NCBI RefSeq assembly: GCF_000382285.1
Contig: NZ_KB907927.1
Location: 124,001-188,000, forward strand
Direction of reading: 5' to 3'
DNA: 64,000 bases
Source: Solimonas variicoloris DSM 15731
GTDB lineage: Bacteria > Pseudomonadota > Gammaproteobacteria > Nevskiales > Nevskiaceae
Notes under the pieces: generated by a model
What the model was told of the DNA's origin: nothing
Seen by the model: the letters and a program-made list of their open reading frames with translations, nothing else
Databases searched by the model: none
Position numbers and translations under genes: made by a program
In this document: piece after piece, positions 7,390-58,363 of the stretch
Numbering within the stretch: the stretch's first letter is position 1
Layout: every line of letters begins with the position of its first letter

Positions 7390-8298
7390 TTATTTAATGT
7401 TATTTCGCAGTTCGCCGCCGACGGCGGGGCCGCGCCCCCAATGCAGCTTGTTGCGCAGGATGTTGAAGTACGAATAGTTCTTCGGGTGCACGAGCGTGAG
7501 GCGGAAATCGGCTTCGCGCACCTCGAACGATTCGCCGGCGCGCAGCGTCTCGGCGGTCTGGCCGTCGCAGGTGTACATCGCCACGGTGTCCGGATCGCCG
7601 CGCAACGCGATGCGGACCGTCTGCCGGCTGCTGACGACGATCGGGCGGTCGGACAGCGTGTGCGGACAGATCGGCACCAGCGTCAGCGCGTCGAGGCCAG
7701 GGTGCACGACCGGTCCGCCGCCGGACAGTGCGTACGCGGTCGAGCCGGTCGGGCTGGCGACGATGAAACCGTCGGCACGGTGCTGGGAGATGAACTCGCC
7801 GTCGAGCCAGGTCTCGAACTCCAGCATGCGGATCGCCGCCTGATTGCGGATGACGACGTCGTTGACGGCGAGCCGCGCCGCGCCGCGCCTCTGGTCGCGG
7901 ATCAGCCGCGTCTGCAGCAGCAGGCGCTGCTCGCGCAGGTAATCGCCGGCGAAGATCGCGGCGAGCGCCTCGTGCATCTCGCCGGGCTGCACGTCGACCA
8001 TGAAACCGACGCGTCCCTGGTTGACGCCGAGCAGCGGCACGCCGGCCGGGGCAAGGTCGCGCGCCGCCGACAGCAGCGTGCCGTCGCCGCCGACGACGAT
8101 GACCAGGTCGCAGCGCACCAGCTCGTGGCGCGGCAGGCGCTCGACGTCCGCAGGCAGTTCGAGGCCCGGCAGCGTCAGCTCGTCGAGGCGGATGCGGCGG
8201 CCATGCGCGCGCAGGACCTCGATCAGCTGGCGCAGCGTCGGAATGACCTGCGGGTCGCGCCGCTTGCCGATGACGCCGACGATCTCGAAGGGATGCAT
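7390..8298 (-). CDS. nadK: NAD kinase
   Basis: A 302-residue NAD kinase that makes NADP from NAD and ATP in the cytoplasm. It shows the GGDGT motif (VIVVGGDGTLLSA), the NE/D region (AVNDVVI) and the ASPTGSTAYALSGGGP signature. I used ATG 8298 (MHPFEIVGVIGKRRDP), where family similarity begins. An in-frame ATG at 8334 (MLTSAANFRFFS...) has a better AGGGG ribosome site 7 nt upstream, so a 314-residue form is possible. It is divergent from hrcA; a heat-shock promoter for hrcA lies in the gap. Confidence 0.95.
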   Translation of the reverse strand: MHPFEIVGVIGKRRDPQVIPTLRQLIEVLRAHGRRIRLDELTLPGLELPADVERLPRHELVRCDLVIVVGGDGTLLSAARDLAPAGVPLLGVNQGRVGFMVDVQPGEMHEALAAIFAGDYLREQRLLLQTRLIRDQRRGAARLAVNDVVIRNQAAIRMLEFETWLDGEFISQHRADGFIVASPTGSTAYALSGGGPVVHPGLDALTLVPICPHTLSDRPIVVSSRQTVRIALRGDPDTVAMYTCDGQTAETLRAGESFEVREADFRLTLVHPKNYSYFNILRNKLHWGRGPAVGGELRNNIK

Positions 8299-8374
8299 GG
8301 AGAAGAACCGGAAATTTGCCGCGGACGTTAGCATGAATGACCCCTGCCGCCATCGGAAATCGTCCTTCAGGCTA

Positions 8375-8400
8375 TTGAAAATGCGCCGGAAAAACCCCAT
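8375..8400 (+). promoter_or_regulatory. Sigma-32 (heat-shock) promoter of hrcA
   Basis: TTGAAA at 8375-8380 and CCCCAT(TT) at 8395-8400 are 14 bp apart, a near-consensus RpoH promoter (CTTGAAA-N11-15-CCCCATnT). The ATG of hrcA is at 8410, only 9 nt past the -10 element, so the transcript would have almost no leader. Confidence 0.75.
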
Positions 8401-8409
8401 TTTTACGCC

Positions 8410-9447
8410 ATGTCCAAAGCCCTAGACGATCGCGCCGCCGAGCTCCTGAAGCTGCTCGTGGAGCGCTACATCCGCGACGGGCAGCCGGTCGGCTCGCGCA
8501 CGCTGTCGCGGATGGCGGGCCTGGCGCTGTCGCCGGCGACGATCCGCAATGTGATGGCCGACCTCGACGAGCTGGGCTTCGTCGCCTCGCCGCACACCTC
8601 GGCGGGGCGCATCCCGACCACGCGCGGCTATCGCTATTTCGTCGATGCGCTGCTGTCGCCCGAGTCGCTCAGTGCCAACGAGAAGGAACTGATCGCCAGC
8701 GAGCTGCTGCCGCGCGACCGCTCGCCGGCCGACCTCGTGCAGGCGGCCTCGAACCTGCTCTCCGAAATGTCGCGGATGGCCGGTGTCGTCACCATGCCGC
8801 GGCGCAATCTGGCGGTGCTGCGGCGCATCGAGTTCCTGCCGCTGTCCGGCAATCGCGTGCTGACCATCCTGGTCGTCAACCAGCACGAAGTGCAGAACCG
8901 CATCATCTACACGGAGCGTCCGTACGGCGCCGATGAGCTGGAGCGCTACGCCAACCTGCTCAACGAGCATTTCGCCGGCCGCGACCTCGTCAGTCTGCGT
9001 CAGGCGCTGGTCGAGGAGGCCGCCGACGCCCAGGCGCACGTCAACCTGCTGCTGCGCGAGGCGGCGACCATGGCCGAGCAGGCGCTGCGGCCGCAGGGCG
9101 CCGGCGATTACATCGTCGCCGGCCGGCCGAACCTGATGGGCTTCCAGGAGCTCGCCGACGTACAGCGCCTGCGCGGGCTGTTCGAGGCCCTCGACGCCAA
9201 GCGCGATCTGCTCGACCTGTTCGACCAGTGCCTCAATGCCGATCGCGTGCAGCTGTTCATCGGCGACGAATCCGGTTACCGCGTGCTCGACGAGTGCAGC
9301 GTGGTCACGGCGCCGTACTACGTGGACGGCAAGATCGCCGGCACGCTCGGCGTGATCGGGCCGACGCGCATGGCCTATCACCGCATCATTCCGATCGTGC
9401 GCGAGACGGCGCGGCTGCTGTCTGCCGGCTTGAAAGGCGAGGGCTGA
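8410..9447 (+). CDS. hrcA: Heat-inducible transcription repressor HrcA
   Basis: A 345-residue HrcA with the N-terminal winged helix (LVERYIRDGQPVGSRTL, SPATIRNVMADLDELGFV) and the GAF-like C-terminal half (GVIGPTRMAYHRIIPIV). HrcA normally represses chaperone genes by binding CIRCE (TTAGCACTC-N9-GAGTGCTAA). I found no CIRCE element upstream of hrcA, grpE, dnaK or dnaJ, so its target must lie elsewhere (often groESL). It is first in the group hrcA-grpE-dnaK and has its own sigma-32 promoter. The start codon has no Shine-Dalgarno and is probably leaderless. Confidence 0.96.
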   Translation: MSKALDDRAAELLKLLVERYIRDGQPVGSRTLSRMAGLALSPATIRNVMADLDELGFVASPHTSAGRIPTTRGYRYFVDALLSPESLSANEKELIASELLPRDRSPADLVQAASNLLSEMSRMAGVVTMPRRNLAVLRRIEFLPLSGNRVLTILVVNQHEVQNRIIYTERPYGADELERYANLLNEHFAGRDLVSLRQALVEEAADAQAHVNLLLREAATMAEQALRPQGAGDYIVAGRPNLMGFQELADVQRLRGLFEALDAKRDLLDLFDQCLNADRVQLFIGDESGYRVLDECSVVTAPYYVDGKIAGTLGVIGPTRMAYHRIIPIVRETARLLSAGLKGEG

Positions 9448-9587
9448 AACCGCAGATAGCGGCGGGGAGCGCGCGGCTTTGCTAGATGCTGGCCGTCCGG
9501 CTGGCTATCATGCGCCGCTCTCTCCGCGGCCGGGTGCTCTGGGTACCCGCCTCAACTTTCCCGACGACAGACAGATCGAATAGCGAT

Positions 9588-10112
9588 ATGACGGATACTC
9601 CCGAGCAGGCGGCCCCCGGCGCCGGCGGCCAGAACGAGCTGGAGACGCTGCGCGCCCAGCTCGACGACGCCGAAGCCCGCGCCGCCGCCGCCAAGGACGC
9701 GCAGCTGCGCGCCGCTGCGGACCTCGAAAACACCCGCCGCCGCCTCGAGCGCGAAGCCTCCAACAACCTCAAGTACGCGGCCGAGAAGCTGCTCGGCGAG
9801 CTGCTGGCCGTCGCCGACAGTCTCGAGCTGGGCCTGAAGGCCGCCGAACTCGCTGACGGGCCGGCGCGGGCGATGGGCGAGGGCCTGCAGCTCACCTACC
9901 GCCAGCTGATGAGCGTGCTCGAGAAGCACGGCGTCAAGCAGATCGACCCGCGCGGCCAGCCGTTCAATCCGGACTTCCATCAGGCGATGTCGATGGCGCC
10001 GAGTGCCGCGGTGCCGCCCAATCATGTCCTGGACGTGATGCAGAAGGGGTACAGCCTGCACGAACGCCTGCTGCGTCCGGCGATGGTGGTCGTGGCGCGC
10101 GCGCCCGACTGA
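9588..10112 (+). CDS. grpE: Nucleotide exchange factor GrpE
   Basis: A 174-residue GrpE. It has the long N-terminal helix (LETLRAQLDDAEARAAAAKDA), the LRAAADLENTRRRLERE region and the C-terminal beta domain with HGVKQIDPRGQPFNPDFHQA and VMQKGYSLHERLLRPAMVVVA. It releases ADP from DnaK. ATG 9588 gives a standard length and is used in preference to an in-frame extension back to 9486. It lies 140 bp after hrcA and 105 bp before dnaK. Confidence 0.97.
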   Translation: MTDTPEQAAPGAGGQNELETLRAQLDDAEARAAAAKDAQLRAAADLENTRRRLEREASNNLKYAAEKLLGELLAVADSLELGLKAAELADGPARAMGEGLQLTYRQLMSVLEKHGVKQIDPRGQPFNPDFHQAMSMAPSAAVPPNHVLDVMQKGYSLHERLLRPAMVVVARAPD

Positions 10113-10217
10113 ACAGCGAAAGCGCAAAAAAGCGCAGAAAACGCACCAAAACCCCTTGAAACCCTGCATCGAGCCTTCAGTTAGGCGGCAGGAACAAAAC
10201 CAATTTCGGAGTCACCC

Positions 10218-12152
<1,935 letters not shown>

Positions 12153-12169
12153 GCGGCACGCAGTACCAC

Positions 12170-12202
12170 GAGCGCCCGGCGTCGAGCCGGGCGCTCTTCT
12201 TT
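12170..12202 (+). terminator. Rho-independent terminator after dnaK
   Basis: An 11-bp perfect stem (GAGCGCCCGGC, 12170-12180; GCCGGGCGCTC, 12186-12196), 5-nt loop, then TTCTTT. It lies 18 bp after the dnaK stop and just ahead of the channel gene, so dnaJ expression depends on read-through or another promoter. Confidence 0.85.
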
Positions 12203-12224
12203 GAAGGGCCTGCTGGGGACCGCG

Positions 12225-12796
<572 letters not shown>

Positions 12797-12800
<4 letters not shown>

Positions 12801-13918
12801 GCAAGCGCGACTATTACGAAGTACTCATGGTCGAAAAGACCGTGAGCGAGGACGGGCTCAAGAAGGCCTATCGCAAGCTGGCGATGAAATACCACCCGGA
12901 CCGCAATCCGGGCGACAAGGCGGCCGAGGAGCAGTTCAAGGAAATCAGCGAGGCTTACGAAGTCCTTTCCGACGAGAAGAAGCGCGCGATCTACGATCAG
13001 TACGGCCACGAAGGCTTGAGCCGCGGCGCCGGTGGTGGCGCCGGCGCCGGCGGCTTCGCCGACATCTTCGGCGATGTGTTCGCCGACATCTTCGGCGGCG
13101 GCGGCGGCGGACGCGGCGGTCCGCGCCGCGGTGCCGACCTGCGCTACATGATGGAGCTGACGCTCGAGCAGGCGGTGTTCGGCTCGACCGAGAACATCCG
13201 CATCCCGAGCTGGGACGAATGCGAGTCCTGTCACGGCCACGGCACCGCCGACGGCAAGAAGCCGCCGACCTGTCCGACCTGTCGCGGCTCCGGCCAGGTG
13301 CGCGTGCAGCAGGGCTTCTTCGTGCTGCAGCAGACCTGCCCGAACTGCCGCGGCCGCGGCACCAGCGTCAGCGATCCGTGCAAGAGCTGCCGCGGCGCCG
13401 GCAAGCTGCGCCGCGAGAAGACGCTGGAGGTCAAGATTCCGCCGGGCGTCGATACCGGCGACCGTATTCGCCTGTCCGGCGAAGGCGAACCGGGCGAGGC
13501 CGGCGCGCCGAGCGGCGATCTCTACGTGCAAATCAACGTCAAGCCGCACGAGATTTTCGAGCGCGACGGCAACGACCTGCATTGCTCGATGCCGATCTCG
13601 GTCGTCACCGCCGCACTCGGCGGCACGCTCGAGGTGCCGACGCTGGAAGGCAAGGTCGAGATCGACGTGCCGGAAGGTTCGCAGAGCGGCAAGCAGTTCC
13701 GTCTGCGCGGCCGCGGCGTGCGCTCGGTGCGCACGGCCGGGCCGGGCGATCTGTACTGCACGGTCTTCGTCGAGACGCCGGTGCGCCTCAACAAGCAGCA
13801 GAAGGAACTGCTCCGCCAGTTCGGCGAGACGCTCGACAAGGAAGGCGGCAAGCACCACCCGGAAACGTCGAGCTGGCTCGGCAAGGCCAAGCGCTTCTTC
13901 GACGATCTGACGACCTGA
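12797..13918 (+). CDS. dnaJ: Chaperone protein DnaJ (Hsp40)
   Basis: A 373-residue class I DnaJ: J domain with HPD ([10 protein letters not shown]), Gly-rich linker, four zinc-finger repeats ([32 protein letters not shown]) and the substrate-binding C-terminal domains. It stimulates DnaK ATPase and hands over clients. The ATG overlaps the TMEM175 stop codon; the true start is fixed by the conserved KRDYYEVL. It converges on sthA; the 60-bp gap is GC-rich and contains a possible hairpin but no T-run. Confidence 0.98.
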
Positions 13919-13978
13919 GCGCCATCGCCGGCGCCCGCGCCGCGCGGGCGTCGGCGCGTGATCGGGCCCCGCCCGGGA

Positions 13979-15364
13979 TCAGGCGAGCCGGTTCAGGCCG
14001 TTGTGCGCGGCGACGCGGTAGGCCTCGGCCATCGTCGGGTAGTTGAACGTGGTGTCGATGAAATAGCGCAGGTTGTTGAGGTCGCGGCTCGCCATCACGG
14101 TCTGGCCGATGTGGACGATCTCCGAGGCGCGGTCGCCGAAGCAGTGCACGCCGAGCACCTGCAGCGTCTCGGTATGGAACAGCAGCTTGAGCATGCCGCT
14201 GGTCTCGTGCGTCATCTGCGCGCGGGCCAGGCTCTTGAACTGTGCGTAGCCGACTTCGTACGGAATCTTCGCCTCGCGCAGCTGGCGCTCGGTCTGGCCG
14301 ACCGACGAGATCTCCGGCAGCGTGTAGATGCCGCTCGGGATCAGGTCCAGCCGCTGCGGACCGTCGAGTCCGCCGATCAGATGCTGGACCGCGAACTGGC
14401 CCTGCACGTAGCCGGCGCTGGCCAGCGCCGGCGGGCCGATCACGTCGCCGACCGCATAGATGTTCGGTACCGCCGTCTGGTAATGGCTGTCGACGGCGAT
14501 CTGGCCGCGCGAGTTGATCTGGATGCCGAGCGCCTCGATGCCGAGGCCGTCGGTATTGCCGGTGCGGCCGTTGGCCCAGAGCAGCACGTCGGACTTGATC
14601 TTGCGGCCGGATTTCAGGTGCAGCAGCACGTCGTGCTCGCGCGCCTCGACGTGGTCGTACTGCTCGTTGTGGCGGATCATGCAGCCCTGCTCGCGCAAGT
14701 GGTACGAGAGCGCCTCGGCGATCTCGTCGTCGAGGAAGGACAGCAGGCGGTCCTGGGTGTTGACCAGCGTGACCTTGGAGCCGAGGTTGACGAAGATCGA
14801 GGCGTACTCGCAGCCGATCACGCCGGCGCCATAGATCGTGATCGAGAACGGGTGGTCCGGATAGCTGAGGATGCTGTCGCTGTCGCGGATGCGCGGATGC
14901 GTGAAGTCCAGCTCCGGCGGATGGTAGGGCCGCGAGCCGGTGGCGATCACGAAGTGCTCGGCGCGCAGCGTCACGGCGGCGCCCTCGCGGTCGACCGACA
15001 GGGTATTGGCGTCGACGAAACGCGCGTCGCCGCGGAACACCGGCACCTTGTTGCGCTCGTAGAAGCGCTGCCGGCTGGCGACCTGGGCGTCGACGACCTG
15101 GTCCTTGGCGCGCAGCAGCTGCGGATAGCTGACGCGCAGGTCGGCGGTGATCTCGCGCAGCAGCGGGTCGCGGCGGATCGCGGTCAATCGGGTGACGGCC
15201 TGGCGCAGGGCCTTGCTCGGGATCGTGCCCCAGTGCGTGCAGCCGCCGCCGACTTCGCGATAGCGCTCGACCAGGGCGACCCGCCGATGGTTCTTCGCGG
15301 CCATCATCGCCGCGCCTTCGCCGGCCGGGCCGGAACCGATTACCACCACATCGTAAGCGTGCAT
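13979..15364 (-). CDS. sthA: Soluble pyridine nucleotide transhydrogenase SthA
   Basis: A 461-residue flavoprotein of the disulfide-reductase superfamily. It has the FAD dinucleotide fold ([19 protein letters not shown]), the NAD fold ([15 protein letters not shown]) and a dimerisation domain. The redox-active CxxxxC of true reductases is replaced by [15 protein letters not shown], keeping one Cys, as in SthA. It moves electrons between NADPH and NAD in the cytoplasm. Length (E. coli 466) and motif agree. The ParA-like gene lies 43 bp upstream on the same strand. Confidence 0.95.
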
Positions 15365-15407
15365 CTCGCGTCCTGTTCTGGTCGCGGATGCCGGTCCACC
15401 CCGAACG

Positions 15408-16175
15408 TCAGCCGCGATGCAGCGAATTGTAAAGCGCGACGTACTCCTGCGTAACGCGGTGGCCGCGGTCGAGGTAGATCATCGGCTTGTGCTGTTCGTG
15501 CGATTCCTTGACGCGTACCGAGGACGACAGGGTTTGTTCGAGCACCGGCTTGCCTTCGGCGCGCAACTCGTCGATCAGCCGTGTCGGCAGCTTCGAGCGC
15601 GCCGAGAACTGGTTGGCGACGATGCCCTCGACGCGCAGTTCCTCGTTGTGGTCGGCGCGGATCTCCTCGATGTTGTCGAGCAGGGTGTAGAGCGCCTGGC
15701 GCGCGAATTCGTCGCAGTCGAACGGGATCAGCACGCTGTCGGCGGCGATCAGCGCCGAGCGCGCGTAGAAGTTCAGCGCCGGCGGCGTGTCGATGAAGAC
15801 GGCGTCGTAACCCTTGAGCTTGCGCAGCGCGTCGCGCAGCTTGTAGATCTTCTGCTTGGCTTCTAGCTTGACGGCGAGCTCGTCGAGGCGCGGATCGGCG
15901 GCGACGACGTCGAGGTTCTCGAACGGCGTGCTGGTGACGTAGGTCACGAACGGCGCCGGCGCCAGCGAGAACGACAGCGTCGATTCGAAGAAATCGGCGA
16001 TCGTGCGGTCGACCGTCGCGGCGCGCGTGCCGAGCAGGTACTGCGTGGCGTTGCCCTGGGTGTCGAGATCGATGACCAGCGTGCGCAGACCGTGGGCCGC
16101 AGCGATCGCGGCGAGATTGCAGACGATCGTGGTCTTGCCGACCCCGCCTTTCTGGTTGAAAACCACGCGTTTCAT
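15408..16175 (-). CDS. ParA-family ATPase (orphan)
   Basis: A 255-residue deviant Walker A ATPase: [15 protein letters not shown] at the N-terminus (KGGVGKTT 9-16), [18 protein letters not shown] (Walker A') and [11 protein letters not shown] (Walker B). Such proteins position plasmids, chromosomes or large complexes by forming ATP-dependent dimers on DNA. No parB-like gene or parS site is next to it, so it is not an obvious partition pair; gammaproteobacteria commonly carry similar orphans. ATG 16175 has GGAG 7 nt upstream; a longer open frame to 16418 has no family similarity. Confidence 0.86.
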
Positions 16176-16341
16176 GACGACTCCGTTCCCCGCGGACATT
16201 TCGTGCCGGATCTCGCACCGATCATGCCGGGCGCGACAGTGGCAGAATGCTAGCCCAAGCCCGGGCGCCATGGACTGGCCGAATCGCCAGCCGCCGCCGC
16301 AGCGCCTCCGCCCGGCCATCTCTCCCGCCACGTCCATCATC

Positions 16342-17100
16342 ATGAAATCCGAATTGAACGTCTTCGTGACCGGCGCCTCGTCCGGTTTCGGTGCGGCCAT
16401 CGCGCGCCGCTTTATCACCGAGGGTCATCGCGTGATCGCCGCCGGCCGCCGCTCCGAGCGCCTCGCCGAACTGGCCGCCGCGTGCGGCGAGCGCCTGCTG
16501 CCGCTGACGCTGGATGTGCGCGACCGCGCCGCGGTCGAGGCGGCGGTCGCCGGCCTGCCGGCGCCGTTCGCTGCCGTCGATGTGCTGGTCAACAACGCCG
16601 GTCTCGCGCTCGGCCTGAAGCCGGCCGACCAGGCCGATATGGCCGACTGGGAGCAGATGGTCGACACCAACATCAAGGGCCTGCTCTATGTCACCCGGGC
16701 GCTGACGCCGGGCATGGTCGAGCGCGGCCGCGGCCACGTCATCAACCTCGGCTCGGTCGCCGGCGAATGGCCGTATCCGGGCGGCAACGTCTACGGCGGC
16801 ACCAAGGCCTTCGTCCGCCAGTTTTCGCTGAACCTGCGCGCCGACCTCGTCGGCCGCGGCGTTCGCGTCAGCAACATCGAGCCGGGCATGGCGGAGACGG
16901 AGTTCTCGCTGGTGCGCTATCACGGCGATGCCGAAAAGGCCAAGGCGGTCTATGCCGGCATCGAGCCGCTGACGGCCGAGGACATCGCCGATACCGTCTA
17001 CTGGATCGCGACGCGGCCGGCGCACGTCAACATCAACACGATCTCGCTGATGCCGGAGTGCCAAGCGTTTTCGTCGTTCGCGGTGAAGCGGCAATCCTGA
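16342..17100 (+). CDS. ydfG: SDR oxidoreductase YdfG (NADP-dependent 3-hydroxy acid dehydrogenase)
   Basis: A 252-residue short-chain dehydrogenase close to E. coli YdfG (248). It has the cofactor motif TGASSGFG (10-17), NNAG (84-87) and catalytic Ser138, Tyr151 and Lys155. The tail (RPAHVNINTISLMPECQAF) aligns with YdfG PAHVNINTLEMMPVTQSY. YdfG oxidises L-allo-threonine, serine and 3-hydroxy acids with NADP and also reduces malonic semialdehyde. Divergent from the ParA gene, 166 bp apart. Confidence 0.9.
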   Translation: MKSELNVFVTGASSGFGAAIARRFITEGHRVIAAGRRSERLAELAAACGERLLPLTLDVRDRAAVEAAVAGLPAPFAAVDVLVNNAGLALGLKPADQADMADWEQMVDTNIKGLLYVTRALTPGMVERGRGHVINLGSVAGEWPYPGGNVYGGTKAFVRQFSLNLRADLVGRGVRVSNIEPGMAETEFSLVRYHGDAEKAKAVYAGIEPLTAEDIADTVYWIATRPAHVNINTISLMPECQAFSSFAVKRQS

Positions 17101-17202
17101 GCCCCGCGGCGGTCGACCGGCCTACAGCGGGCCGGGCGAATGCCTGACGGGTAGCGGCGCAGCGCTGCTTATCCTCCTTGCACAAGGCGCCTGGAGGAGA
17201 AC

Positions 17203-18123
17203 ATGCGCTCGATCGCAGCTCTATGCGGATGCGCCGGCGTGCTGCTGGCGCTGGGCGCCGGCCTCGCCGGGGCGGCGGTGACGCCGGACGAGAACGTGCT
17301 CGTGTTCCGCCGCACGATCATCGATCAGGGCGTCAGCCGCAGCATCGTCTATCTGCGGCCGCGACTGGCGCCGGCGTCGGCGCCGCCGGCCTTGTTCCTG
17401 CTGCCGTACCGCAACGGCAGCGCCGACGACATGGCCGATCTCACGCGCGCCGGCCGCCTGGCGCGCGATTACGGCGCCTGGGTCATCGTGCCGGAGGCCT
17501 TCACCGGCCTGTGGAACTACAAGATGCTGCTCGGGCCGCTGACGACGCCGAACGATCTGCTGTTCCTCGACCGCGTCATCGACGCGGCGGTCGCCGACTA
17601 CGGACTCGACGCGCACCGCCTCTACATGGGCGGCTATTCCGGCGGCGCGATGATGACGCTGCGCTACGTCTGCGAGCGCCCCGGGCGGATCGCCGCCGCG
17701 GCGCTGGTCGGCGGACAGATGATCCGCACGCTGGCCGACAAATGCGCGACCGCGCCGGCGCCGGCGCTGGCCTTCATCAACGGCCGCGAGGATCCGGTCG
17801 GCCCCTACGACGGCGACCTGACGCTGATGTCCTCGCCCGACAGCGCCGCCTTCTGGGCGCGCGCCAACGGCTGTGCGCCGGTGCCGCTGCGCGAGGCGCT
17901 GCCGGACCTCGTCGACGACGGCACCACGGTGGTCGTCGATCGCTACCGCGGCTGCACGCACGGCGAGGCGGTGCGTCTCTACACCGTCGAGGGCGGCGGC
18001 CATACCTGGCCGGGCGCGGTCGACTTCACGCCGTCGCTTGGCGCGACCACGCAGGACTTCGACGCGACGACGACCTTCATGTCGTTCCTGGTGCCGTTCT
18101 CGACCGCGGAGGGCGTGCGATGA
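17203..18123 (+). CDS. Secreted alpha/beta-hydrolase, PHB depolymerase/feruloyl esterase-like
   Basis: A 306-residue exported protein: signal peptide (about 1-25) then an esterase domain. The nucleophile elbow GGYSGGA gives Ser146, Asp197 lies in NGREDPVG, and His267 in GGGHTWPG; this spacing and the HTWPG motif are typical of the LpqC/polyhydroxybutyrate depolymerase (CE1-like) group, which includes feruloyl and acetylxylan esterases. Several Cys could form periplasmic disulfides. Substrate is not determined. It has GGAGGAG just before ATG and overlaps the next gene by ATGA, so the two secreted proteins are made together. Confidence 0.8.
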   Translation: MRSIAALCGCAGVLLALGAGLAGAAVTPDENVLVFRRTIIDQGVSRSIVYLRPRLAPASAPPALFLLPYRNGSADDMADLTRAGRLARDYGAWVIVPEAFTGLWNYKMLLGPLTTPNDLLFLDRVIDAAVADYGLDAHRLYMGGYSGGAMMTLRYVCERPGRIAAAALVGGQMIRTLADKCATAPAPALAFINGREDPVGPYDGDLTLMSSPDSAAFWARANGCAPVPLREALPDLVDDGTTVVVDRYRGCTHGEAVRLYTVEGGGHTWPGAVDFTPSLGATTQDFDATTTFMSFLVPFSTAEGVR

Positions 18124-19298
18124 AGCGGACCTTGTTCCTCATCGCCGCGTGGCTGGGCACGGCCGTGGCGCAGGCGGCGGCGCCGCTCGGTGCCGAATTT
18201 CGCGTCAACGGCACGACGGCGCTCGACCAGCAGCGGCCGGCGCTGGCGCGCGCCGGCAACGGCCGCTTCGTCATCGCCTGGGACAGCAGCGAAGCGGGCG
18301 GGGCGGCGGGCGACGTCTACGCACGCCGCTACGCGGCCGATGGCACGCCGCTCGGCGCCGAGTTCCGCGTCAACAGCACCACGCGCAATCGCCAATATGC
18401 GCCGCGCGTCGCTGTCGACGCCGACGGGGGTTTCGTCGCCGCCTGGCTCAGCAACGCGCAGCACAGCGTCGGCCTGTCGCTGTACGCGCGCCGCTACGGC
18501 GCGGACGGCGTGCCGCTCGGGCCGGAGTTCCGCGTCGACAGGACCGGCCGCGCGACCTCGGCGCAGTTCGACGTGGCGATGGCGCCGAACGGCGCGTTCG
18601 TCGTCGTCTGGGTCGATCGCGACGCGATCGTCGGCGCCAGCTTGCAGGCGCGCTACGTCAACGCCCAGCGCTATACGCGCGACGGATGGGCCGACGGCGC
18701 CCCGATCGCGGTCTACGACAGCACGCTGTTCCAGGTTCGCGTGCCGAGCGTCGCCAGCGACGCGGCTGGCAACTTCGTCGTCGCCTGGTTCGTCGGCGCC
18801 AACAGCATCTGGGCGCGGCGCTACGATGCCGCCGGCAGGGCGCGCGGTCCGGGCTTTCGCGTCAGTACCGCCGGCGACCAGGTCGACCGGCCGCGGATCG
18901 CCGCCAGTGCCGGCGGTGCGTTTGCGATCGCCTGGGAGACCGGCGACGAGGCCTTCGCCGACACCGGCGTCTACCTGCGTGCCTACAACGCCGCCGGTCA
19001 CGCGACGATGGCGCCGGCACGCGTCGACCGCCGCATGCTGCGCTTTCCCGAAATCGCCTTCACGAACGATACGCAGCTGGTGGTCGCCGCACACGGCGAT
19101 GCGATCTACGGGCAATGCTGGAATGTCACCGGCACCGCGCTTGGCGGCGCCTTTCGCGTCGACGCGTCGCCGACGCTGCACACGCCGTTGCTGGCGAGCG
19201 TCGCCAGCGACGGCGGCGGGCAGCTGCTGTTCGCGTGGCAGAACTTCAGCGTTGCCGCCGGCCGCGACATCTACGCGCGCCTGTTCTCGCGCTGCTGA
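18120..19298 (+). CDS. Secreted seven-repeat beta-propeller-like protein
   Basis: A 392-residue exported protein of unknown function. After a signal peptide (MKRTLFLIAAWLGTAVAQA) the whole chain consists of seven similar units of about 45-60 residues, each with the pattern PLGxEFRVN ... G.FVxAW ... YARRYxADG. Seven such beta-rich units predict a seven-bladed propeller; this is inference from the repeat. The C-terminus ends at the last repeat with a Cys and has no GlyGly-CTERM or autotransporter tail. It is translationally coupled to the esterase, so it may help bind the same polymer. Its 3' end overlaps the convergent HPP gene by 28 bp. Confidence 0.75.
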   Translation: MKRTLFLIAAWLGTAVAQAAAPLGAEFRVNGTTALDQQRPALARAGNGRFVIAWDSSEAGGAAGDVYARRYAADGTPLGAEFRVNSTTRNRQYAPRVAVDADGGFVAAWLSNAQHSVGLSLYARRYGADGVPLGPEFRVDRTGRATSAQFDVAMAPNGAFVVVWVDRDAIVGASLQARYVNAQRYTRDGWADGAPIAVYDSTLFQVRVPSVASDAAGNFVVAWFVGANSIWARRYDAAGRARGPGFRVSTAGDQVDRPRIAASAGGAFAIAWETGDEAFADTGVYLRAYNAAGHATMAPARVDRRMLRFPEIAFTNDTQLVVAAHGDAIYGQCWNVTGTALGGAFRVDASPTLHTPLLASVASDGGGQLLFAWQNFSVAAGRDIYARLFSRC

Positions 19299-54410: not shown

Positions 54411-54773
54411 TTGAGCACACCGCCACGCGCGGGCGGAGCACCGCCCGGCATCCTGACGCTGCACATCAAGGACAAATCGGCCTTGTACGTCGCCTACATG
54501 CCGTTCGTGAAAAACGGCGGCCTGTTCATCCCGACCAACAAGGATTACCGGCTTGGCGATGAGGTCTTCATGTTGCTGACGCTGATGGACAACCCCGAGC
54601 GTCTGCCGGTAGCCGGCAAGGTGGTCTGGGTCACGCCGCGCGGCGCGCAGAACAAGCGCGTACAAGGCATCGGCGTGCAATTCAGCGCGCAGGACGGCGG
54701 CGCCACGCAGAAGAAGATCGAGGGCTTGCTCGCCGGCGCGCTCGGCGCCGACCGGCCGACGCATACGATGTAA
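54411..54773 (+). CDS. pilZ: PilZ-domain type IV pilus protein PilZ
   Basis: A 120-residue protein matching type IV pilus PilZ: LTLHIKDKSALYVAYMPFVKNGG, then YRLGDEVFMLLTLMDNPERLPVAGKVVWVTP and QGIGVQF. As in this branch, the RxxxR c-di-GMP-binding motif is missing, so it works by protein contacts (PilB/FimX in other species). The start is TTG 54411 with CGGGGA upstream. Last gene of the fabD operon, the usual place. Confidence 0.9.
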   Translation: MSTPPRAGGAPPGILTLHIKDKSALYVAYMPFVKNGGLFIPTNKDYRLGDEVFMLLTLMDNPERLPVAGKVVWVTPRGAQNKRVQGIGVQFSAQDGGATQKKIEGLLAGALGADRPTHTM

Positions 54774-54829
54774 TCGCCGCTTCGTTCGTTAAGGAGTGAA
54801 AGCGCGCCAGCTGCGTCAAGTAAATGGAT

Positions 54830-54845
54830 CATAATGTATATTATG
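54830..54845. repeat. Inverted repeat in an AT-rich island
   Basis: CATAAT and ATTATG are perfect 6-bp arms around GTAT, inside an AT-rich stretch (about 54818-54857) that contrasts with the GC-rich surroundings. TATATT at 54837-54842 could be a -10. A 35-codon GTG frame at 54868-54975 with GGAGAAGG upstream follows, but has no recognisable product. Confidence 0.5.
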
Positions 54846-54971
54846 TTAAGTTTTTGGAGAAGGCGCAGTGTCCGGATGCATCCGAGCTAACCTCGTCTTC
54901 GCCGCATCGAGCCGTTCAATCCTGATCCCGCTCCGCTCGGTGCGCTCGCGCACGCTGGCGGCGGCCCGGAA

Positions 54972-54985
54972 TTGATCCGCGTCAG
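54972..54985. promoter_or_regulatory. Weak FNR-like box at the inversion edge
   Basis: TTGATCCGCGTCAG matches 8 of 10 defined positions of TTGAT-N4-ATCAA. It ends one base before the inverted fragment of the phosphoribosyltransferase gene. Confidence 0.4.
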
Positions 54986-55063
54986 TCCGGCGCGGTACCG
55001 AGCGCAGGTCCGCAGCAGGTCCGCCAGCTGTTGTCCGGCCTGCTCGCGGTTGCGAAAGCGCAT
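54986..55063 (-). pseudogene. Inverted N-terminal fragment of the phosphoribosyltransferase gene
   Basis: On the minus strand an ATG at 55063 opens MRFRNREQAGQQLADLLRT followed by CARYRAG. This is the usual N-terminus of phosphoribosyltransferases of the type encoded next door (family pattern: RFxxRxxAGxxLAxxL, then ALPRGGVPVA). The neighbouring plus-strand gene lacks exactly this part and begins with the residues that should follow (GPAIVYALPRGG). The fragment therefore looks like the missing 5' end turned around. Beyond 54986 the frame reads on without similarity. Confidence 0.7.
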
Positions 55064-55205
55064 ATTGTCTGCGGCGCGCGTCATGGGCTTCGCGCGGCTA
55101 TCGGCAGGGCGCGGCCGGCGATGGCCCGCCTGCAGCTGTACCGCGGCAAGAGCCGCCGGCATTGCGCATCGGCGAATCGGCGCTTCATCGGCTTCTCCGA
55201 CGATC

Positions 55206-55219
55206 GGTCTGCGCAGACC
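55206..55219. repeat. 14-bp perfect palindrome near the inversion edge
   Basis: GGTCTGCGCAGACC is self-complementary. It lies about 10 bp left of where phosphoribosyltransferase homology resumes (near 55230). Confidence 0.7.
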
Positions 55220-55268
55220 TTAGTGCGTTCGCGGGCCGGCGATCGTCTATGCGCTGCCGCGTGGCGGC

Positions 55269-55817
55269 GTGCCGGTCGCGGTCGAGATCGCGCGCCGCCT
55301 GGGACTGCCGCTGGATCTGATCATGGCGCGCAAGATCGGCCATCCGCAGCAGCCGGAGTATGCGATCGGTGCCGTCACCGAGACCGGCGAGCCGGTCTTC
55401 AACGCCGAGGAACGACAACAGCTCGATGCCGACTGGCTCGCCGCGAGGATCAGCGCCGAACGCGCCGAGGCGCGACGCCGGCGCGAGCTCTATTGCGGCG
55501 GCCGTGCGCGCCGCTCGGCGCACGGCCAGTGCGCGATCATCGTCGACGACGGCGTCGCCACCGGCCTCACTCTGGAGGCGGCGATTCGCGAACTGCGCGG
55601 TGACCATCCGGCCCGGCTGATCGTCGCGGTCGGCGTCGCGCCGCCGGACACCGCGCAGCGTTTTCGCGCGCAGGTCGATGACTTCGTCGCCGTGCACGTG
55701 CCGGCGCAGTTCCAGGGTGCCGTCGGCGCGTACTTCGAGGACTTCCACCAGCTCGGCGACGACGACGTGCTCGCCCAGATGCGCTCGCTGCCGGCACCGC
55801 CGGACGTGCCGTCATGA
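55269..55817 (+). pseudogene. Phosphoribosyltransferase, 5' end displaced by inversion
   Basis: The plus-strand frame keeps similarity from about 55230 (RGPAIVYALPRGG) to the stop at 55817, and can initiate only at GTG 55269, giving 182 residues. It has a PRPP-binding loop VDDGVATG (92-99) and the family stretch DLIMARKIGHPQQPEYAIGAV. The normal protein would have about 40 more residues; they appear on the opposite strand at 54986-55063. A stop (TAG 55221) closes the frame upstream. Members of this family are often fused to, or paired with, a dienelactone-hydrolase-like domain, as here (hydrolase start 20 bp later). It may still be made in truncated form, but loss of ALPRGG probably inactivates it. 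Confidence 0.7.
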
Positions 55818-55836
55818 AGCGCGCTCGCCCGGCGAA

Positions 55837-56481
55837 GTGCAGATCGCCCTGCCCGACATCGGCCTGCCGGGCGACCTCGCGCTGCCGGCGCTGCCGCGCG
55901 GCCTCGTCGTGTTCGTCCACGGCAGCGGCAGCAGCCGGCACAGCAGCCGCAACCGCTTCGTCGCGGCGGCACTCGCCAAGCGCGGCTTCGCCACGCTGCT
56001 GTTCGATCTGCTCAGCGAGCGCGAGGACCTCGACGAGGCGGCCCGCTTCGACATCGAGCTGCTGACCCGGCGCTTGCTCGGCACCTGTACGTGGATCCGC
56101 GGCGAAGCGCGGCTCGCCGCGCTGCCGCTGAATCTGTTCGGCGCGAGCACTGGCGCGGCCGCCGCGCTCGCCGCGGCGGCCGAACTCGACGACGGCATCG
56201 CCGCGGTCGTCTCGCGCGGCGGGCGCCCCGACCTCGTGCTGCCGCTGTTGCCGCGCGTGACGTCGCCGACGCTGCTGATCGTCGGCGGCGCCGACGACAT
56301 CGTCATCCAGCTCAACCGCAAGGCGTACGCGGCGCTGCGCGCCCCGAAGGAGCTCGCCATCGTGCCCGGGGCGACGCATCTGTTCGAGGAGCCCGGTGCG
56401 CTGGAGCGCGTCGCCGAACTGGCCGGCGACTGGTTCGAGCGCCATGGCGTCGGCCGGCAGCCGCCGCGCTCGCACCCATGA
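55837..56481 (+). CDS. Alpha/beta hydrolase (dienelactone hydrolase-like)
   Basis: A 214-residue cytoplasmic hydrolase. The oxyanion region is VVFVHGSGSSRHSSRNR, the nucleophile Ser104 in FGASTGAA, an acid at Asp153/154 in GGADD and His181 in PGATHLFEEPGALE. This is the DLH-like domain that accompanies phosphoribosyltransferases, either fused or as a neighbour. Substrate unknown. The first usable in-frame start is GTG 55837, without a clear ribosome site; this is the least certain point. Its stop overlaps the polX ATG. Confidence 0.8.
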   Translation: MQIALPDIGLPGDLALPALPRGLVVFVHGSGSSRHSSRNRFVAAALAKRGFATLLFDLLSEREDLDEAARFDIELLTRRLLGTCTWIRGEARLAALPLNLFGASTGAAAALAAAAELDDGIAAVVSRGGRPDLVLPLLPRVTSPTLLIVGGADDIVIQLNRKAYAALRAPKELAIVPGATHLFEEPGALERVAELAGDWFERHGVGRQPPRSHP

Positions 56482-58238
56482 GCGTCAGCAACGCCGCCAT
56501 CGCGGCGGTGTTCGAGGAGATCGCCGACATCCTCGAGATCGAGGGCGCCAATCCCTATCGGGTCCGCGCCTATCGCAACGCGGCGCGCACGGTGTCGGCA
56601 TACGGAACCGAGCTGGCGCCGCTGCTCGCGCGCGGCGCGACGCTGCCGAAGATGCCGGGCATCGGCGAGGATCTGGCGGGCAAGATCGCCGAGATCGCCG
56701 CCACCGGCAGCTGCGCGCTGCGCGAGCGCCTGCACCGCGAAGTGCCGGCGGCGATCGTCTCGCTGCTGCAGGTCGCCGGCATCGGCCCGAAGCGCGTCAA
56801 GCTTCTTTATCACGACCTCGGCATCGAAACGCCCGAGCAGCTGCTCGAAGCCGCGCGTGCCGGCCGCGTGCAGCGCCTGCACGGCTTTGGCGCCAGGACC
56901 GAGGCCCGCCTGATGGAGGCACTGCAGCGCCAGCTCGCGCCCGGCAGACGCTACCCGCTCGCCGACGTCGCGGCGCAGGGTGAAGCGCTCGCCGCCGCGC
57001 TGCGCGGATGCCGCGGCCTGCGCTCGATCACCGTCTGCGGCAGCGTGCGGCGCATGCGCGACACGGTCGGTGACCTCGACCTCCTCGCCGTGACGCGCAC
57101 GCCGGCGACCGTGATGCGCCGCTTTCTCGGTCTGCCGGCCGTTGGCGAGGTGCTGACGCGGGGACCGACGCGCGCCACCGTGATGCTGCGCTCCGGCCTG
57201 CAGGCGGACCTGCGGGCAATCGCGCCGGAAGCCGAGGGGGCCGCCCTCGTCTACTTCACCGGCTCCAAGGCGCACAACATCGCGATCCGGCGCCGCGCGC
57301 AGAAGCGCCGCCTCAAGATCAGCGAGTACGGCGTGTTCCGCGGCGCACGGCGCATTGCCGGAGCGACCGAGGCCGAGGTGTATGCCGCGATCGGCCTGCC
57401 GCCGATCCCGCCGGAGCTGCGCGAGGATCGCGGCGAGATCGCCGCCGCGGCGGCCGACCAGCTGCCGCGGCTGATCGAGCGCGCGGACCTGCGCGGCGAT
57501 CTTCACGTCCACACCATCGGCAGCGACGGCACCGCCGATCTCGAGGCGATGGCGCAGGCCGCGCGCCGCGCCGGCCTGCAGTACATCGCCATCACCGACC
57601 ACTCGCGCTCGACGCGCGTGGCGCACGGCCTCGACGAAGCGCGCCTGCTGCGGCAACTCGACGCGATCGACGCGCTCAACGCCAGGCTGGACGGCGTGGT
57701 GCTGCTCAAGGGCATCGAGGTCGATATCCTTGCCGACGGTCGACTCGACCTGCCGGACCGCGTGCTCGGCCGGCTCGACATCGTCGTCGGCGCGGTACAC
57801 GCGCATTTCGATCTGCCGCGCCGTCGGCAGTTGCTGCGCCTGCAGCGCGCCTTGGACCATCGCCATTTCCACGTGCTCGCGCATCCCTCCTGCCGGCTGA
57901 TCGGCACACGGGAGCCGCTCGACGTCGACATCAGCGCCGTGATTCGCAGCGCCGCGCAGCGCGGCTGCGGGCTCGAGCTCAACGCACAGCCGCAGCGCAT
58001 GGATCTGCTCGACACGCATTGCCGCGAAGCGCAGGCGCAAGGCGTGCCGATCAGCATCGCCAGCGACGCGCACGGCCCGCGCGACTTCGACTGGTTGCAC
58101 TACGGCGTCGGCCAGGCACGGCGCGGCTGGCTGCGGCGCGAGGATGTCGTCAACACGCGCACGCTCGACGAGCTGCGCCAATGGCTGGGCGCGCGGTCGT
58201 CGCAGGCATCTAGCGAACACCGCCGCCGCGGTCCATGA
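56478..58238 (+). CDS. polX: Family X DNA polymerase/3'-5' exonuclease PolX
   Basis: A 586-residue PolX. The N-terminal helix-hairpin-helix 8-kDa domain begins NAAIAAVFEEIADILEIEGANPYRVRAYRNAA. The nucleotidyltransferase core has VCGSVRRMRDTVGDLDLLAVT. A C-terminal PHP domain (from about residue 338) has GDLHVHTIGSDG, ITDHSRSTRVAHG, KGIEVDIL and LAHPSCRLIGTREP. Bacterial PolX fills gaps in base-excision repair and has PHP-dependent exonuclease activity. It overlaps the hydrolase gene by 4 bp, so all three genes of this unit are coupled. Common in Deinococcus and Bacillus, scattered in proteobacteria. Confidence 0.94.
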   Translation: MSVSNAAIAAVFEEIADILEIEGANPYRVRAYRNAARTVSAYGTELAPLLARGATLPKMPGIGEDLAGKIAEIAATGSCALRERLHREVPAAIVSLLQVAGIGPKRVKLLYHDLGIETPEQLLEAARAGRVQRLHGFGARTEARLMEALQRQLAPGRRYPLADVAAQGEALAAALRGCRGLRSITVCGSVRRMRDTVGDLDLLAVTRTPATVMRRFLGLPAVGEVLTRGPTRATVMLRSGLQADLRAIAPEAEGAALVYFTGSKAHNIAIRRRAQKRRLKISEYGVFRGARRIAGATEAEVYAAIGLPPIPPELREDRGEIAAAAADQLPRLIERADLRGDLHVHTIGSDGTADLEAMAQAARRAGLQYIAITDHSRSTRVAHGLDEARLLRQLDAIDALNARLDGVVLLKGIEVDILADGRLDLPDRVLGRLDIVVGAVHAHFDLPRRRQLLRLQRALDHRHFHVLAHPSCRLIGTREPLDVDISAVIRSAAQRGCGLELNAQPQRMDLLDTHCREAQAQGVPISIASDAHGPRDFDWLHYGVGQARRGWLRREDVVNTRTLDELRQWLGARSSQASSEHRRRGP

Positions 58239-58363
58239 CCCAGGTCAGTGCCCGCGCATCGCGCCGTCCGACAATCAATGGGCCTGCGGTCCGGATCTGC
58301 GGCGCCGGATCGCCATTCCTTTCGACGCGCGCGTCGCCAGTCGGCCGCGACACGGAGCCCGCG

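Follow-up and report, generated by a model that had tools for sequence, protein, structure and literature searches.

The genome of Solimonas variicoloris DSM 15731 encodes a phosphoribosyltransferase gene that lacks its 5' end on the plus strand, and a short sequence resembling such a 5' end lies upstream on the minus strand. The locus raises the question whether the two are parts of one gene and, if they are, whether the segment that carries the 5' end was turned around once or can be turned back as in an on/off switch. The stretch of DNA considered in the current analysis, referred to as the window, comprises 64 kb (contig NZ_KB907927.1, positions 124,001 to 188,000), and the features of the region are listed in Table 1 with positions counted from the first letter of the window.

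Table 1. Features identified around the split phosphoribosyltransferase gene.
Feature	Position	Strand	Remarks
pilZ-domain gene	54411..54773	+	PF07238; DNA homology with the congener G007 (89% over 3.57 kb) stops exactly at the pilZ stop
Stretch between pilZ and dif with the breakpoint of a large lineage-specific rearrangement	54774..54823		pilZ is separated from the convergent cNMP/rhodanese gene that usually adjoins it
Chromosomal dif site (XerCD) ATGGATCATAATGTATATTATGTTAAGT	54824..54851	+	Only copy in the genome; GC skew sign change nearby; compared with E. coli dif
Displaced phosphoribosyltransferase 5' end	54989..55063	-	ATG at 55063; N-terminal profile match E 1.8e-7
Inverted segment, best estimate	54999..55231		In-frame joins with the spacer length of homologues; possible left edge 54962-55007, right edge 55222-55238
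14-bp perfect palindrome GGTCTGCGCAGACC	55206..55219		Inside the inverted segment; upstream of the gene once orientation is restored
Phosphoribosyltransferase body	55224..55817	+	PF00156 E 5e-12; profile E 2.3e-76; first 20-odd residues missing
Alpha/beta hydrolase (dienelactone-hydrolase-like)	55837..56481	+	Start codon uncertain
polX (DNA polymerase X with PHP domain), intact	56478..58238	+	NF006375 489.6 bits, cut-off 426

A gene divided between the two strands

The original prediction described a plus-strand frame closed by a stop at 55221 and homologous to phosphoribosyltransferases only from GPAIVYALPRGG onwards, and this has been confirmed in the sequence. The in-frame stop is a TAG, and the earliest standard start codon in the frame of the gene body is GTG 55269. 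The coding strand is thus without an intact N-terminus and its start codon. The minus strand from 55063 to 54989, proposed to encode the missing N-terminus, translates as MRFRNREQAGQQLADLLRTCARYRA. To this proposal we have applied a profile built from 51 homologues, drawn from public genomes and congeners with the window sequence left out, and searched against the 1147 pieces of a six-frame translation of the window. Only one piece is matched by the N-terminal profile, the minus-strand ORF 55219-54890 (27.1 bits; the runner-up among the 1147 pieces has an E-value of 0.22). The peptide therefore resembles the N-termini of the family, as had been proposed.

With the full profile, the plus strand accounts for positions 24-205 and the minus strand for positions 1-20. 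The two pieces of the gene thus complement each other without overlap, and re-inversion of the segment yields a single continuous open phosphoribosyltransferase frame, in agreement with the original prediction. The plus-strand part scores 45.8 bits against PF00156 (cut-off 26.3), and the score is 63.7 bits with the N-terminus restored. At the level of DNA, the similarity to congeners begins abruptly at 55232-55235. The minus-strand stretch 55063-55022 aligns exactly onto the first 42 nucleotides of the gene in genome G003, a weak match (74%, E-value 1.8) that is supportive only. The output of blast at word size 4 was mostly noise. The split and strand-inverted phosphoribosyltransferase gene is real and not a product of chance.

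The orientation is not one that is common to the relatives of this organism. The arrangement has been observed in none of 57 other genomes of the family, in which the closest homologues are 57-67% identical in protein. A phosphoribosyltransferase gene at this locus is found in none of the congeners compared, and no second copy of the gene has been found in the genome.

The minus-strand fragment could also be viewed as an inverted partial duplicate, or the remnant of a second copy, in which case the plus-strand gene would have lost its true 5' end by deletion. The region next to dif is rearranged and the parental state is seen in no close relative, which would be compatible with such a history. 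Two events would be needed for it, including a deletion that ends at the matching codon, whereas a single inversion explains both pieces; the pieces moreover complement each other without overlap in the profile and join in frame at the spacer length of the homologues. An origin by duplication and deletion is hence regarded as highly improbable.

Edges of the inverted segment and the question of a switch

The edges had been placed at about 54987 and 55228, which describes roughly the right segment. With these edges the spacer between the N-terminal motif AG and the next motif RGG is 28 residues long and the distance from Met to RGG is 39 residues. The AG to RGG spacer comprises 23 residues in 43 of the 51 homologues, five fewer than with the proposed edges, and Met to RGG comprises 34 residues in all four of the closest homologues (G003, G005, G023, G074). 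In-frame joins with this length of 34 residues have their centres at 54998-55008 and 55222-55232 and an inverted match of 0-4 bp. Because the spacer given by 54987/55228 is too long in comparison with the homologues, breakpoints at 54999-55003 and 55227-55231 are preferred as the best estimate, which is not exact to the base without a close relative. The exact breakpoints and the direction of the inversion are suggested by the gene structure of homologues, the parental orientation being absent at this locus in other genomes and the nearest homologues having diverged to the extent given above.

Exact inverted matches between the two edge regions are at most 7 bp long, and 35% of the 417 equally spaced pairs of regions compared in this GC-rich window reach that length or more. 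The 7-bp exact inverted repeat CGGCCCG (54962-54968) and CGGGCCG (55232-55238) is in frame. It has been rejected as the site of crossover, as it is at chance level, an in-frame 7-bp match occurring at 27% of equally spaced positions of the window, and as it gives a spacer 10 residues longer than that of the homologues. The imperfect edge match quoted in the original prediction, CCGGCGCGG and CCGGCCCGCG, has also been rejected; only CCGGC (5 bp) is common to the two, and a crossover there shifts the frame by one base and does not restore it. The 14-bp palindrome reported near the right edge is present.

No match to PF00239 or PF00589, and hence no recognised serine or tyrosine recombinase gene, has been found on the contig that carries the locus (contig C3, 358 kb, extending 179 kb on each side of the inverted segment); a search for an invertase gene nearby had been suggested. 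The one serine recombinase of the genome and all nine tyrosine-recombinase matches are encoded on other contigs.

Two readings had been offered for the inversion, the bolder of which is a reversible intragenic inverton that switches the phosphoribosyltransferase and perhaps the downstream hydrolase and polX. Re-inversion does give an open frame, the repeat CGGCCCG/CGGGCCG would be in frame, and intragenic invertons are a known kind of element in which, as at this locus, the inversion of coding sequence alters whether the full-length product can be read (Chanin et al. 2024, Nature 634:234, as cited in PMC11868660). In comparison with intragenic invertons, the present locus has no repeats above chance level, no nearby recombinase and no evidence of a second orientation. 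The repeats of known invertons measure 10-40 nt, and the invertase gene is often close by (PMC11892184); repeats of this size are not found at the edges, nor is an invertase gene on the contig. Among the congeners and family members searched, none has an invertible arrangement at the phosphoribosyltransferase gene. The tests of repeats and recombinases lend no support to a switch, which, with a single orientation seen, is in our view very unlikely. Hardly to be expected is a reversible inversion next to dif that does without long repeats, for example through a recombinase encoded elsewhere that uses CGGCCCG and switches a phosphoribosyltransferase-hydrolase-polX operon. A reversible inversion would be the first switch of this kind known to us for a phosphoribosyltransferase-hydrolase pair; the evidence, however, is against it. 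The more modest reading, a one-time rearrangement, is the better of the two given the chance level of the edge repeats and the contig free of recognised recombinases.

The inversion could in principle be an artefact of assembly or sequencing, the chromosome itself having an intact gene and a segment of 230 bp being flipped in the draft, which consists of 48 contigs. The remainder of the gene is conserved and not decayed, and the edges are without a repeat that would explain a natural inversion, both of which would be in keeping with an artefact. Against this, the segment is situated within the 358-kb contig with no N and has no long repeat able to mislead an assembler, and it is general knowledge that unique segments of 230 bp are not normally flipped by short-read assemblers. 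An artefact is considered unlikely.

The dif site and the rearrangement beside it

A dif site and an adjacent large rearrangement, neither of which was part of the original prediction, have been identified to the left of the inverted segment. The XerC and XerD arms of the site flank a 6-bp centre and closely resemble the dif sequence of E. coli given in PMC3025954: the core CATAATGTATATTATG is identical to the E. coli core, and there is a single base difference in the 22-base stretch CATAATGTATATTATGTTAAGT. A search by exact pattern gives a single dif in this genome and in each of 8 of 10 congeners, and the dif of G007 carries one or two changes. The sign change of the GC skew falls at 48-56 kb in the window, and the inverted segment begins about 150 bp beyond dif. 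Xer-integrated elements (IMEX) share with this locus a canonical dif just upstream and accessory genes that start directly after it. They differ in that no second dif-like site (at least 17 of 26 matches) is found elsewhere in the window, and an element bounded by two dif sites has for this reason been rejected.

The pilZ gene faces a cNMP/rhodanese gene in five genomes (G007, G002, G004, G005, G006), and in G003 the two are about 2 kb apart. In the present genome this gene is located 159 kb from pilZ on the same contig (C3:337739 to 338785); it is 92% identical to that of G007, and its homology with G007 stops at its own 3' end. Given the end of homology at pilZ and the displaced cNMP/rhodanese gene, the 50 bp that separate pilZ from dif contain one breakpoint of a large rearrangement specific to this lineage; the small inversion is about 200 bp away. 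A simple two-break inversion of 160 kb is not claimed, as the sequence beyond C3:338785 is, as far as tested, unlike that to the left of dif in G007.

The interval between dif and hpf (54852-58343) is variable in the genus. It contains the phosphoribosyltransferase, hydrolase and polX genes in this organism; in G007 an island of 10 kb takes their place, with genes for a tyrosine recombinase and an ATPase (L152, about 8000-18200). A counterpart of polX is found in none of the ten congeners, and it has therefore probably been acquired together with the two preceding genes. No RNA family and no consensus promoter or terminator has been found in the region.

The frames of the hydrolase and of polX are open. 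The hydrolase has no clear ATG, as the ATG that overlaps the phosphoribosyltransferase stop (55814-55837) is out of frame and the best in-frame start is GTG 55837; its 5' end may contain a small frameshift. The gene order and family of the first two genes are those of phosphoribosyltransferase-hydrolase pairs (PF00156 followed by an alpha/beta hydrolase) in G023, G074 and several plasmids, the difference being that here the first gene is broken and polX follows. The two members of such a pair are fused in mycobacterial Rv0571c.

Probable origin and consequence of the inversion

A one-time micro-inversion at the rearranged terminus, by which the accessory phosphoribosyltransferase was made a pseudogene, is considered the probable explanation of the locus. 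An inversion of about 230 bp would have flipped in place the first 20-23 codons together with the region upstream of them, for which neither a recombinase nor long repeats would be needed. Probable routes are the joining of broken ends or template switching at a match of 0-4 bp. With dif about 150 bp and the large breakpoint about 200 bp away, the small inversion may be a scar left by the event at the terminus that also produced the large rearrangement.

The inversion deprives the gene body of its start codon and first strand, and an active protein is probably not made. A product started at GTG 55269 would be without the motif ALPRGG, which, judging by the fold, would belong to the pyrophosphate-binding loop, and for this reason a loss of function is suggested. 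The gene body retains 40 of 42 highly conserved positions with no frameshift, and GC3 is typical in the body (0.87) as well as in the displaced piece (0.84). Judged by these features of sequence the event looks recent, and the inversion is probably fixed.

Gene disruption by non-homologous micro-inversion is known from other cases, with which this locus has in common a short segment turned in place, an edge match of 0-4 bp and a gene split between the strands. It differs from them in adjoining dif and the breakpoint of a large rearrangement, a setting that may be of relevance. The locus would stand as a clear case of a gene split across the two strands by a micro-inversion, of a kind that annotation pipelines would miss by recording a short gene with an odd start. 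Its location beside dif and the large breakpoint may make it a small example of the repair scars left at the replication terminus.
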